From the NCBI GenBank assembly GCA_017622555.1, contig JAGAQV010000024.1:1-47420 (forward strand): DNA of 47,420 nucleotides, in the 5' to 3' direction. Source of the stretch: Clostridia bacterium. Lineage in GTDB: Bacteria > Bacillota > Clostridia > Oscillospirales > Acutalibacteraceae. Below are positions 35,902 through 40,573 of this stretch, in pieces. Under the pieces are notes generated by a model. That model worked only from the letters and a program-made list of their open reading frames with translations, made no database searches and was not told where the DNA came from. Each line of letters opens with the position of its first letter. Within the stretch, counting starts at the first letter, position 1. The position numbers and the translations under genes are program-made.

Positions 35902-37890
35902 ATGTCTATGGCAAAAACCAAGCAAGAATACGGTAACGACAGTATTAAACAGCTTAAAGGACCTGACCAGGTGCGACTTCGTCCTGCGGTTATTTTCGGT
36001 TCGGACGGACTTGACGGCTGTCAGCATTCGGTATTTGAAATAATTTCAAACTCAATAGATGAAGCACGTGAGGGTCACGGTAATAAAATTATTATTACCA
36101 AATATAGCGACGGCTCAATTGAAGTGCAGGACTTTGGCCGTGGCGCTCCTGTTGACTATAACCAAAAGGAAGAACAGTATAACTATGTTTTGCTGTTTGA
36201 AAGCCTTTATGCCGGCGGCAAGTATGACACTAATAGCGGTGGCGATTATGAATATTCAATTGGTCTTAACGGATTAGGTCTTGCTTCGACCCAGTTCTCG
36301 TCTGAATATATGGACGTTGAAATTAAGCGTGACGGTTATAAATATAACCTTCATTTTGAAAAGGGCTTTAATAAGGGTGGACTTCAAAAGGAAGAATATT
36401 TGGGTAAAGACACGGGCACCAAAATTAAATGGAAGCCTGATTTAGACGTTTTTACTGATATTGATATTCCTGTTGAGTATTTTTTAGATACCCTTAAAAG
36501 ACAAGCTATTGTTAATGATGGGCTTGTGTTTGTTTTCCGTGAACAGCAGGGAAGCCGCTTTATTCAACAGGAAATTGTTTATAACGACGGTATTAAGGAC
36601 TATGTAAACGAAATTGTCGGCGAAGATAAGATGGCTAACGTTCAGTTTTGGCAAACTGAAAGAAAGGGACGCGACCGCGAGGACAAGCCCGAATACAAGG
36701 TAAAAATAAACGTTGCGATGAGCTTTTCCAACAAAACGCCCATTCGTGAATACTACCACAACTCCAGCTGGCTTGAACACGGCGGTGTGCCCGAAAAGGC
36801 AACAAGAAGCGCATTTTTAAGCATGCTTGATAATTACATTAAGCAGACAAATAAATATAAAAACAACGAAAGTAAAATTACTTTTTCTGATATTGAGGAA
36901 TGCTTGGTTTTGGTTATTTCGTCATTCTCGACAATGACCTCTTACGAAAACCAAACCAAAAAGTCAATAACCAATAAGTTTATTTATGAAGCAATGGTTG
37001 ATTTTTTACGCCATCAGTTAGAGGTTTACTTCATTGAAAACAAGGCCGAGGCTGATAAAATTGCCGATCAGGTTCTTGTTAATAAGCGCAGTCGTGAACG
37101 CAGCGAAAAGGAAAGAATTAACCTTAAAAAGACACTTGCCACCAATAATTCAATGGTTGACCGTGTCCAAAAGTTTGTTGACTGCAGAAGCCGTGACGTA
37201 AGCGAACGTGAGCTTTATATAGTGGAAGGTGACTCGGCTTTAGGTTCTTGTAAATTGGCTCGCGATGCCGCTTTCCAAGCAATTATGCCTGTTCGCGGTA
37301 AAATTCTTAACTGCTTAAAGGCTGAATATGAAAAAATTTTTAAGAGTGAAATTATTACCGACTTACTGAAAGTGCTTGGTTGCGGTGTTGAGGTTAAATC
37401 GAAAGCCAACAAGGGTCTTTCAACCTTTGACCTTAATAATCTTCGTTGGAATAAGATTATAATTTGTACCGATGCCGACGTTGACGGCTTCCATATTCGT
37501 ACCCTTATTTTAACAATGATTTACCGCTTAATGCCCACCCTTATAAGCGAGGGCAAGGTATATATTGCGGAAACCCCGCTTTATGAAATTAACACTAAAA
37601 AAATGACCTATTTCGCTTACGATGAAAACGAAAAGCGTGAAATTCTTGAAAAAATCGGGGATGAAAAGTACGATTTACAGCGTTCAAAGGGTCTTGGCGA
37701 AAACCAACCCGATATGATGAACTTAACGACAATGAATCCCGACACCCGCCGACTTATAAAGGTATTACCCGAGGATGCCGAAAGAACAAGCGAAATGTTT
37801 GATTTACTGCTTGGCGACAATTTGCAGGGCAGAAAAGATTATATTTCAGAAAACGGCTATCTTTACATTGACGAAGCAGATATTTCTTAA
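35902..37890 (+). CDS. parE: DNA topoisomerase IV subunit B (type IIA ATPase subunit)
   Basis: 662 residues. With ParC it decatenates and relaxes DNA using ATP. The GHKL ATPase has EIISNSIDEA near 48-57, DFGRGAPVD near 77-85, and SIGLNGLGLAST near 119-130. The transducer domain follows. The Toprim motifs are YIVEGDSALGSCK near 439-451 and the D-x-D IICTDADVDGFHIRT near 516-530; QRSKGLGENQPD is near 592. The length and divergence fit the clostridial ParE-like group rather than housekeeping GyrB. Two ATGs, 35902 and 35908, are usable. The stop abuts the left repeat of the four-helix-bundle insertion. Confidence 0.93.
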   Translation: MSMAKTKQEYGNDSIKQLKGPDQVRLRPAVIFGSDGLDGCQHSVFEIISNSIDEAREGHGNKIIITKYSDGSIEVQDFGRGAPVDYNQKEEQYNYVLLFESLYAGGKYDTNSGGDYEYSIGLNGLGLASTQFSSEYMDVEIKRDGYKYNLHFEKGFNKGGLQKEEYLGKDTGTKIKWKPDLDVFTDIDIPVEYFLDTLKRQAIVNDGLVFVFREQQGSRFIQQEIVYNDGIKDYVNEIVGEDKMANVQFWQTERKGRDREDKPEYKVKINVAMSFSNKTPIREYYHNSSWLEHGGVPEKATRSAFLSMLDNYIKQTNKYKNNESKITFSDIEECLVLVISSFSTMTSYENQTKKSITNKFIYEAMVDFLRHQLEVYFIENKAEADKIADQVLVNKRSRERSEKERINLKKTLATNNSMVDRVQKFVDCRSRDVSERELYIVEGDSALGSCKLARDAAFQAIMPVRGKILNCLKAEYEKIFKSEIITDLLKVLGCGVEVKSKANKGLSTFDLNNLRWNKIIICTDADVDGFHIRTLILTMIYRLMPTLISEGKVYIAETPLYEINTKKMTYFAYDENEKREILEKIGDEKYDLQRSKGLGENQPDMMNLTTMNPDTRRLIKVLPEDAERTSEMFDLLLGDNLQGRKDYISENGYLYIDEADIS

Positions 37891-37920
37891 TGCGTAATGC
37901 GTAATTCGTAATGCGTAATT
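37891..37920. repeat. left inverted heptad repeat of the parE/parC insertion
   Basis: Four tandem 7-base units, TGCGTAA, TGCGTAA, TTCGTAA, TGCGTAA, start one base after the parE stop, followed by TT. They are the reverse complement of the right-hand array at 38286-38313 apart from two bases. Confidence 0.9.
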
Positions 37921-37934
37921 AAAGGACGGTAAAA

Positions 37935-38285
37935 ATGCAGAATATTATAGTTGTGAAAAGTAAGGATTTTGCAATAAGGATTGTGAAGTTATACAAATAC
38001 CTGAATGAAAATAAAAAAGAATATGTTTTGTCAAAGCAACTATTAAAAAGCGGTACTAGTATAGGCGCTAACGTAAAAGAGGCTATAAGAGGTCAAAGCA
38101 AACCCGATTTTTATGCAAAGATGAATATAGCACTTAAAGAAGCAAGCGAAACAGAATATTGGTTGGAGATACTTAAAGAAACTGAGTATATAGATGATGT
38201 TTCATTTGAAAATATTTATGCTGATTGTCAAGAAATATTAAAAATCTTAATGTCGATAACTAAAACTCAAAAGAGTGATGTGTAA
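37935..38285 (+). CDS. Four-helix-bundle protein of the 23S rRNA intervening-sequence (S23/TIGR02436) family
   Basis: 116 residues. Family hallmarks are the SGTSIGANVKEAIRGQS stretch near 39-55 and KMNIALKEASETEYWLEIL near 62-80. Members were first found inside intervening sequences of bacterial 23S rRNA, and related Avd proteins serve diversity-generating retroelements; they form basic pentameric barrels that bind nucleic acid. Here the gene sits between parE and parC with its own AAAGGA site at 37921-37926. Inverted heptad arrays lie on both sides and the right array begins inside the stop codon. No reverse transcriptase or variable repeat is near. The insertion is unusual because parE and parC otherwise adjoin. 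Confidence 0.9.
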   Translation: MQNIIVVKSKDFAIRIVKLYKYLNENKKEYVLSKQLLKSGTSIGANVKEAIRGQSKPDFYAKMNIALKEASETEYWLEILKETEYIDDVSFENIYADCQEILKILMSITKTQKSDV

Positions 38286-38315
38286 TTACGAATTACGAAT
38301 TACGCATTACGAATT
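38283..38315. repeat. right inverted heptad repeat of the parE/parC insertion
   Basis: Units TTACGAA, TTACGAA, TTACGCA, TTACGAA at 38286-38313, opposite in orientation to the left array. The first bases overlap the stop codon of the four-helix-bundle gene. The parC ribosome binding site AAAGGA begins four bases past the end of the array at 38317. Confidence 0.9.
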
Positions 38316-38329
38316 CAAAGGATGAGAAT

Positions 38330-40573
38330 ATGGCACCGAGAAAGAAGAAGGAGCAGGAAGCTCCCAAAAAGAAAAATAATGCCAACGCTTATATTGCGGG
38401 CGCAGGTACAATAGTTGAAAGTCCCGTTACCGAAACTATAACCTCTAACTTTATGCCTTATGCTATGAGCGTTATTGTGTCCCGTGCAATTCCCGAAATT
38501 GATGGCTTTAAGCCGTCGCACCGCAAGTTGCTTTATACAATGTATTTGATGGGGCTTTTAAACGGTAAAACAATAAAATCGGCTAATATTGTTGGTCGCA
38601 CAATGCAGCTTAACCCTCACGGTGATGCCGCCATTTATGAAACAATGGTGCGTTTGTCCGAAGGTCACGAAGCACTTTTGCACCCCTTTGTAATGTCAAA
38701 GGGTTCATTCGGTAAGGCATATTCCCGTGATATGGCTTATGCGGCTTCCCGTTATACCGAAGCAAAGCTGGCACCAATTGCGGCCGAGCTTTTTACCGAT
38801 ATTGATAAGGACACGGTTGATTTTGTGGATAATTATGACGCCACAATGAAGGAGCCCGTGTTATTTCCCGTCACCTTCCCGACAATTCTTGTTAATGCAA
38901 ATATGGGTATTGCGGCAGGTATGGCAAGCTCGATTTGTCCCTTTAACTTAAAGGAAGTTTGCGAAACCACAATTGCTTACATCAAGGATGACGAAATCAA
39001 CGTGGCGGACACCCTTTTAGCGCCTGATTTTCCCATCGGCGGTCAGCTTTTATACAACCGCAGTGATATGGAAAAAATTTATGAAACGGGTCGTGGCAGT
39101 TTTAAGGTTAGGGGCGTTTACACATATGATAAATCTGCTAACTGCATTGATATTACTGAAATTCCGCCCACAACCACCTGTGAGCAGATTATCGAAAAGG
39201 TAGTTGAGCTTGTAAAGGCTAAAAAAATTACTGAAATTAACGACATTCGTGATGAAACCGACCTTGAGGGTCTTAAAATTACCATCGACCTAAAGCGTGG
39301 TATCGACCCCGACAAGCTGATGAAGAAAATCATTAAAATGACACCCTTTGAGGACAGCTTTGCCTGCAACTTCAACATTCTTATTGCAGGCTCACCTCGT
39401 GTTATGGGTGTTAAGGAAATTATTAGCGAGTGGGTTGCATACCGTGAGGAATGTGTGCGCCGCAGGGTTTATTTTAAGCTTTCAAAAGCAAAAGACCGTT
39501 TACATCTTTTAAAGGGTCTTGAAAAAATTCTTTTGGATATTGATAAAGCCATTAAAATTGTTAGGGAAACCGAGCAGGAATCCGAGGTTGTACCCAACCT
39601 TATGATCGGCTTTGGCATTGACGAAATTCAGGCCGAATACGTTGCAGAAATTAAGCTTCGCCATTTAAACCGCGAATATATTTTAAAACGCACAGCTGAT
39701 ATAGAAAACCTTATTAAAGAAATTGAAGAAATGGAAAGCATCCTTTCTTCAAAATCAAAGCTTAAGCGCATTATTATTAAAGAGCTTGAAACGGTTATTG
39801 ACAAATATGGCCGTGACCGTAAAACTCAAATCATTAGTGCCGAAACCGAAGCGGTTGACAGTGTTGAAATTGAGGTTGATAATTCGCCCGTTACATTGTT
39901 CTTCACAAATGACGGCTACTTTAAGAAGATTACACCGCAGTCACTTCGTATGAGCGGTGAGCAAAAGCTTAAAGAGGGGGACGAAATTACCCAAACTATT
40001 GAATCAACCAATGCCAGCGAGCTTTTATTCTTCAGCAACAAGGCGCAGGTTTATAAATCAAAAGCTGCTGATTTTGCTGACTCGAAGGCGAGCATTTTGG
40101 GTGATTATATCCCATCAAAGCTCGAATTTGACGAGGGCGAAAATGCAATTTATATGGTTGAAACAAATGACTATAAGGGTCACATGGTGTTTGTGTTTGA
40201 AAACGGTAAAATTTCACGCGTGCCGCTTGAATCCTATGCAACAAAAACCAACCGTAAAAAGCTTATAAAGGCATATAGCGAAAAATATCCCATTCACACA
40301 ATTTTGTTTGTTAAGGAAGACTGTGACATTTTGCTTAAATCGACTAACGGCCGTATGTTAATTGTTAATACCGCATCTATCCCTGCAAAAACTACAAAGG
40401 ATAACGGCGGTGTTGCGGTTATGACACAAAAGAAGGGTCAGCGCATTAGTGAAGTTACCCTTTACGAAAAGGGAACACTTGACAGCGAGCACCGCTACCG
40501 CACCCGTAATTTGCCCGCGGCGGGACAGAAAAAACCGACAGGCACGGCAGAACAGGCAATGCTTGATTTGTAA
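38330..40573 (+). CDS. parC: DNA topoisomerase IV subunit A
   Basis: 747 residues. The DNA-cutting subunit of the type IIA topoisomerase. A lysine-rich N-terminal tail (MAPRKKKEQEAPKKKN) precedes the breakage-reunion domain: FMPYAMSVIVSRAIPEIDGFKPSHR near 42-66, and the catalytic tyrosine in AASRYTEAKL near 140-149. A coiled coil and C-terminal beta-pinwheel follow, with a non-canonical pinwheel start; a GyrA box (QRRGGKG) was not seen, which supports topoisomerase IV over gyrase. It shares a transcript with parE, now interrupted by the four-helix-bundle insertion. Confidence 0.92.
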   Translation: MAPRKKKEQEAPKKKNNANAYIAGAGTIVESPVTETITSNFMPYAMSVIVSRAIPEIDGFKPSHRKLLYTMYLMGLLNGKTIKSANIVGRTMQLNPHGDAAIYETMVRLSEGHEALLHPFVMSKGSFGKAYSRDMAYAASRYTEAKLAPIAAELFTDIDKDTVDFVDNYDATMKEPVLFPVTFPTILVNANMGIAAGMASSICPFNLKEVCETTIAYIKDDEINVADTLLAPDFPIGGQLLYNRSDMEKIYETGRGSFKVRGVYTYDKSANCIDITEIPPTTTCEQIIEKVVELVKAKKITEINDIRDETDLEGLKITIDLKRGIDPDKLMKKIIKMTPFEDSFACNFNILIAGSPRVMGVKEIISEWVAYREECVRRRVYFKLSKAKDRLHLLKGLEKILLDIDKAIKIVRETEQESEVVPNLMIGFGIDEIQAEYVAEIKLRHLNREYILKRTADIENLIKEIEEMESILSSKSKLKRIIIKELETVIDKYGRDRKTQIISAETEAVDSVEIEVDNSPVTLFFTNDGYFKKITPQSLRMSGEQKLKEGDEITQTIESTNASELLFFSNKAQVYKSKAADFADSKASILGDYIPSKLEFDEGENAIYMVETNDYKGHMVFVFENGKISRVPLESYATKTNRKKLIKAYSEKYPIHTILFVKEDCDILLKSTNGRMLIVNTASIPAKTTKDNGGVAVMTQKKGQRISEVTLYEKGTLDSEHRYRTRNLPAAGQKKPTGTAEQAMLDL

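Follow-up and report, generated by a model that had tools for sequence, protein, structure and literature searches.

The window, i.e. the whole 47,420-nt stretch of DNA analysed, carries a small gene enclosed by two inverted arrays of heptads, lodged between genes encoding the B and A subunits of a type II topoisomerase. The flanking genes were recognized by profile search. The upstream, parE-like gene (B subunit) spans positions 35902 to 37890 on the forward strand, and its TAA stop codon (37888-37890) shares bases with the outermost anchor on the left, the first of that array; the downstream, parC-like gene (A subunit) runs on the same strand from 38330 to 40573. The names parE and parC are those used in an earlier note on this DNA, and neither gene reaches an NCBIfam equivalog cut-off. 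The left array (37889-37921, forward strand, 33 nt) includes four heptads and the inner end AATTA, and features five AAT anchors at 37889, 37896, 37903, 37910 and 37917. The right array (38283-38315, 33 nt) is inverted, with minus-strand anchors at 38315, 38308, 38301, 38294 and 38287. Anchors are spaced 7 nt, and the two full arms are complementary at 31 of 33 positions. The earlier note had described four heptads at 37891-37918 and an inverted set of four at 38286-38313, with 26 of 28 bases able to pair: pairing and heptads are confirmed, but the arrays are slightly longer than claimed, and hold five anchors each. Both arrays score 57 in Tandem Repeats Finder, the top value in the window (the runner-up scores 45). 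The enclosed gene (37935-38285, forward strand) encodes a protein of 116 amino acids of the 23S rRNA-intervening-sequence type, a four-helix bundle, and will be referred to as IVP. The TAA that ends this gene (38283-38285) shares its bases with the right array, at the inner end. An AAAGGA sequence bordering the left array on its inner side (37921-37926, forward strand) is the likely Shine-Dalgarno of the IVP gene, and a second one immediately beyond the right array (38317-38322, forward strand) is the likely Shine-Dalgarno of parC. The element spans 427 nt in all, from 37889 to 38315.

The assignment of IVP to its family, made in the earlier note from the letters alone, is borne out by matches to PF05635 (E 2e-29, 102.4 bits, curated cut-off 33.8) and TIGR02436 (E 4.8e-33, 113.6 bits, cut-off 24). 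At E <= 0.001 no domain besides PF05635 was found in the protein, neither a catalytic one nor a Y1 (IS200/IS605-like) transposase domain. The AF2 model features four helices (pLDDT 94.7), and matches the solved structure 2rld (Bacteroides thetaiotaomicron BT_0352; E 9.8e-10, 58% identity). The best solved relatives, 2rld and 2gsc, have been deposited with five chains each, and a Xanthomonas protein of the family has been described as a homopentamer (PMC4990558); by analogy, the window IVP is plausibly a homopentamer as well. The family is widespread, and two structures have been solved, but no function is known for IVP/S23 proteins, according to the available text of PMC4990558 and to PDB titles. 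The protein is under purifying selection, as dN/dS is 0.06-0.13 in the nine IVP pairs with a finite value (a tenth pair is saturated), and 0.08-0.13 between the window IVP and three relatives from the parE locus. The own genome of the window (G000; 1.6 Mb, 31 contigs) contains three PF05635 genes. Proteins at least 60% identical to the window IVP are called type A. The other two genes (L002, L003) have no arms, look promoter-bearing by eye, and are assigned to a second kind, type B. Inverted arms are missing from the type-B loci examined, several of which carry promoter-like sequences following CATCAT-hairpin strings, as judged by eye.

Inverted arms recur among the relatives of the window IVP. 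In the best 80 of at least 539 relatives confirmed by contig scan, the inverted-arm score is 14 or more at 69 loci and lower at 11, vs 1 of 400 pseudo-gene windows drawn at these loci and none of 240 shuffles. By record title, the 80 relatives span seven or more phyla, and seven named phyla, mostly as MAGs, are represented among the 81 proteins of the tree. All the 14 intact type-A loci of 61 genomes of the genus are armed, as opposed to none of the 19 type-B loci examined; L097, armed and not type A, was left out of both counts, and L112 scores 22. The two arms of an element pair with each other better than arms shuffled among elements do (none of 10000 permutations was as good), and the own right arm ranks first in only 7 of 69 cases, a weak measure because many elements share the same spelling. 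In two further IVP sets, 27 of 43 loci with an ORF score 14 or more; 8 of the 27 had already been counted, these sets have no control of their own, L270 is unscored and five loci lack an ORF. Several of these loci have quite different heptads, TAGGCAG in L257 being an example, and at a few (L258, L265) the inverted arms are not made of heptads. In a Spirochaetota genome, a DUF805 RNA (Rfam RF03081) is found close to an IVP gene, at L299:123-190.

The length of the arrays is nearly fixed. In the 67 elements counted, which omit L137 and L179 as near-duplicates of L134 and L181, exactly five anchors are found in 53 left and 51 right arms, and AATTA forms the inner end of 37 of these left and 40 of these right arms. 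Long arrays of 10-33 anchors occur at a few loci, and no five-anchor AAT run is present in either arm in G028, G035, G036 and G038. Five anchors are also the mode of arrays dispersed in the genome: 10 of 20 runs in G000, and 19 of 30 at loci of G033, G009, G013 and G035, selected by a pattern requiring four anchors. A control on reversed sequences was discarded as invalid, since periodic arrays remain periodic when reversed. Spellings vary among elements (AATTCGG, AATKCGT, AATGCGC, AATKCAT, AATTAGG, others), and both arms share the same dominant heptad class in 56 of the 69 cases, vs an average of 18 and a highest value of 32 over 10000 permutations. AATKCGN arrays have been identified in 21 of the 61 genus genomes and AATKCAY arrays in 6, and no genome has both; this exclusivity is weak alone, because the six genomes are closely related in the parE-parC tree.

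TKCGTAA arrays are found at 13 other places in G000, and the repeat that flanks the IVP gene in two inverted copies is, in a REP-like fashion, also dispersed. At seven loci of this genome (L025, L026, L028-L031, L033) a dispersed repeat joins a heptad array to a AATTTAATTG palindrome, and L254 (G035:C37:43500-45600) has larger, imperfect repeat units in which arrays are repeated in direct orientation. At 20 loci of G033, G009, G013 and G035, 22 of 28 arrays are located within 15 nt of a same-strand stop codon, and several precede terminator-like hairpins (by eye); at 12 loci of G000 the same holds for 3 of 14, and 6 more are within 400 nt. One orthologous gene end has five anchors in G011 and G009, four in G033, two in G019, one in G004 and none in seven others (by eye), an array having been gained or lost exactly at the stop codon among relatives. 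Arrays beyond the arms reside in 11 of 13 genomes with an intact or decayed AAT-type type-A gene vs 14 of 48 others (Fisher p 0.0008, kinship not corrected for). The table was counted by hand, with arm matches rechecked in eight genomes; G009 was counted as lacking the gene though the end of a type-A ORF lies at a contig edge, and 12 of 14 vs 13 of 47 may be truer figures.

The parE-parC interval was compared in 60 loci of the genus, both flanks being recovered in 59 (L044 lacks parE), and G027 was added from L101. Site states, set by hand for the 61 genomes, are intact IVP in 7, decayed IVP in 2, an ORF-less heptad insert in 1, a GTGAATA-type non-coding insert in 8, other in 4, empty in 38 and unknown in 1; G023, scored as other, may hold an IVP remnant, and G003, scored as empty, retains one heptad. 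A search for an empty site in relatives had been proposed in the earlier note. Empty sites were found in 38 of the 60 scored genomes, and the gene is not carried by all relatives. In turn, vertical descent, set there against mobility, may hold for the parE copies: the IVP label requires 6 changes on the parE-parC tree (in the alignment of which G027 fills less than half of the columns), and the parE-locus IVPs as a single clade are not rejected (p-AU 0.47), so that the gene may as well have been lost several times as gained several times. One ancient insertion followed by many losses would fit the locus. Between G000 and G027 there are 129 differences in the 1435 nt of the region 36441-37875, and none in the following 473 nt (37876-38348). 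The jump in identity starts near the left end of the element, and continues to the end of the G027 contig. The identical block looks as if the element had recently been replaced or transferred, or as if the contig were chimeric, as may be the case since the jump reaches the contig end. In eight relatives (L038, L039, L041, L051, L061, L072, L084, L088) another, non-coding insert is found at the same parE stop (junction of 130-158 nt), made of GTGAATA-like inverted heptads enclosing two hairpins (structure by eye). In L064 (G021) a similar two-hairpin core, with no ORF, is enclosed by AATKCGK-type arms, and from this case arms and cores seem interchangeable.

The supposition that the armed gene might have no other copies proved false. 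An IVP gene with AATKCAY arms is located between atpG and atpD in G033 and G035; it is decayed in G056, and the end of an IVP is found at a contig edge in G009. In G011 and G004 the same interval is an empty 24-nt spacer, although over the compared part their AtpG ends show 96 and 92% amino-acid identity to that of G033. Pfam and ARAGORN checks support armed IVP genes at asd-dapA (L133), at atpG-atpD (L188) and preceding dnaE (L147); more asd-dapA-like cases were seen by eye. In three Clostridia MAGs (L148, L164, L175) an armed IVP gene lies just ahead of the tmRNA gene (ssrA), the gene upstream being SmpB in L148 and similar-looking in the others. Related IVP copies with unrelated flanks occur within one genome, as for L140/L144 and L180/L202. 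Comparison by eye of filled and empty junctions, the spacers of which are too diverged, established no target-site duplication, and no transposition event was observed.

IVP genes with inverted arms of near-fixed length recur in many lineages, downstream of the stop codons of unrelated genes; their insertion is polymorphic, and the protein is under purifying selection. The gene and its arms form a recurrent package of the mobile type, not a curiosity of parE-parC, and we infer that this package moves. Judging from the sequence, the chances seem to us about even that the region 37889-38315 is a mobile-type element, namely an IVP gene between two inverted near-fixed recognition arrays, inserted at the parE stop. 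Points against it are the lack of a catalytic domain match in the protein and of an established target-site duplication, the fit of one ancient insertion with many losses to the parE locus, the possibly chimeric G027 contig, the arrays present in 14 of 48 genomes (hand count) with no listed AAT-type type-A gene, the few dispersed arrays of G000 close to a same-strand stop (3 of 14 within 15 nt), the 11 of 80 loci with scores below 14, and the four genomes (G028, G035, G036, G038) with no five-anchor AAT run. According to this hypothesis, an IVP homopentamer would bind one array, one subunit per anchor, and the two inverted arrays would mark the ends of the element for mobilization, cutting and joining being left to enzymes of the host or of some other origin. 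Arrays with no partner, and inverted pairs with no ORF inside, would be non-autonomous or leftover copies. The operon would tolerate the element because it is sited past the parE stop but ahead of the ribosome site of parC, and has a ribosome site of its own. To our knowledge, the origin of ribosomal intervening sequences (IVSs) has been unclear for decades; they could be elements of this kind that inserted in rRNA. In its widest form the hypothesis is more tentative, and we incline somewhat against it: transposase-less mobile elements would occur across phyla, a homopentameric ring would read an array of five 7-nt sites whose spelling is tuned to the host, insertion would take place at stop codons, and ribosomal IVSs would represent the rRNA cases.

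A regulatory system is one alternative to a mobile element. IVP might bind arrays at 3' ends and tune termination, translation restart or mRNA decay, its own gene being autoregulated, whereas arrays would spread by copying and mobility would be secondary. The low dN/dS (0.06-0.13 in the nine finite pairs) speaks for such a role, as do the 22 of 28 arrays within 15 nt of same-strand stops in G033, G009, G013 and G035, several before terminator-like hairpins (by eye), and the lack of genus genomes matching both spelling patterns. Yet arrays persist in genomes with no listed AAT-type type-A gene (14 of 48, hand count), closely related species differ through gain and loss of sites, and IVP copies reside behind unrelated genes. 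On balance we rate a primarily regulatory role as possible, and unlikely.

It is slightly more doubtful that the element is an intervening sequence of the mRNA. In the parE-parC transcript the arms would form a 33-bp stem cut by RNase III, and the IVP part would be released or separated, as in ribosomal IVSs. The arms are conserved as complements, and the upstream gene is on the same strand at 64 of 68 armed loci by mechanical ORF picks (44 of 54 by alternative picking, on the 62 left arms with at least four anchors, 54 of which have a left gene); some upstream genes scored as opposite in this alternative picking are antisense ORFs, a same-strand stop being present at the array. The likeness to an IVS in topology pointed out by the earlier note is real, and extends to size: the 23S IVS of Coxiella burnetii, which RNase III cuts, is 428 nt long, vs the 427 nt of the window element, and has a stem of 28 bp as well as tandem heptamers next to the place of RNase III cleavage (PMC4990558). 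The excision or processing in mRNA inferred there found no support, because G-U and A-C mismatches are equally common in the arms (17 vs 17), and unpaired arrays of similar length lie behind other genes, suggesting that the array rather than the stem is the unit. The idea that the arms exist in order to pair as RNA was rejected on the same lack of G-U excess, in a test of little power, since most mismatches are G-A or T-C and stem from T/G alternation within heptads. Moreover, the downstream ORF is on the opposite strand at 17 of 69 armed loci. Processing of the mRNA retains some plausibility because the RNA of the element folds well (z -3.8 vs 100 shuffles). Tandem repeats slip, and slippage might have built the arrays, the long ones of 10-33 anchors at a few loci included, with the IVP gene as a hitch-hiker, but this is highly improbable in view of the sharp five-anchor peak and preferred inner end, the inverted pairing at 69 of 80 loci, and the purifying selection on IVP.

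If the mobile-element hypothesis is correct, one testable class would take in the intervening sequences of rRNA, the inserts in operons and the heptad repeats dispersed in genomes, and the near-fixed five-anchor array on both flanks of IVP would provide a concrete handle on the role of the pentamer. The data suggest a widespread, little-known kind of mobile element related to ribosomal IVSs. Among the titles and abstract beginnings listed, no description of heptad-armed IVP genes in protein operons was found, nor were strings of the tandem heptad motif found in the literature searched; both searches mostly concerned journals other than subscription ones.

The window element shares terminal inverted repeats with insertion sequences and MITEs. 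The TAACTGA repeats of Beggiatoaceae are, likewise, dispersed intergenic tandem heptamers (PMC4679880), but no inverted pairing around an IVP gene is described in the available text of PMC4679880, in which the words 'helix bundle' do not occur. The fold of IVP is similar to that of Avd of diversity-generating retroelements (4dwl, TM 0.75, E 0.098), and the likeness of Avd to PF05635 has been noted (PMC10053308). Unlike with Avd, the only reverse-transcriptase match (PF00078) of G000 is on contig C8, whereas the window is the whole of contig C18. Movement dependent on reverse transcriptase was considered by analogy to Avd and rejected, PF00078 being present in only 16 of 61 genus genomes. No PF00078 match was found in five MAGs with armed IVP genes (G033, G035, G042, G022 and G010), the completeness of which is 87-97%; within the limits of MAGs, reverse transcriptase is thus not needed, at least for persistence.

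REPs and RAYTs offer another parallel, as in these systems too a gene lies between two inverted repeats also dispersed in the genome (PMC2817692). In contrast to RAYTs, no tyrosine-transposase domain was found in the window IVP; its repeats are heptad arrays rather than palindromes headed by GT(A/G)G, and are found in many phyla. The 23S rRNA IVSs, for the ORF of which a role in mobility was proposed in 1993 (as cited in PMC4990558), differ from the window element, which resides behind a stop codon in a protein operon, not in rRNA; at 40 other IVP loci (29 + 11), scanned to test for heptad-armed rRNA IVSs in Spirochaetota, no rRNA was detected at Rfam gathering scores. Moreover, the window ORF is under purifying selection, whereas the ORF of the Coxiella IVS is said to decay (PMC4990558). 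Tandem heptamers adjoin the ORF in Coxiella as well, the available text of PMC4990558 not stating whether heptads are found in both arms. In either case, a single S23p/IVP-type ORF is enclosed by complementary terminal arms, which in the window match at 31 of 33 positions.
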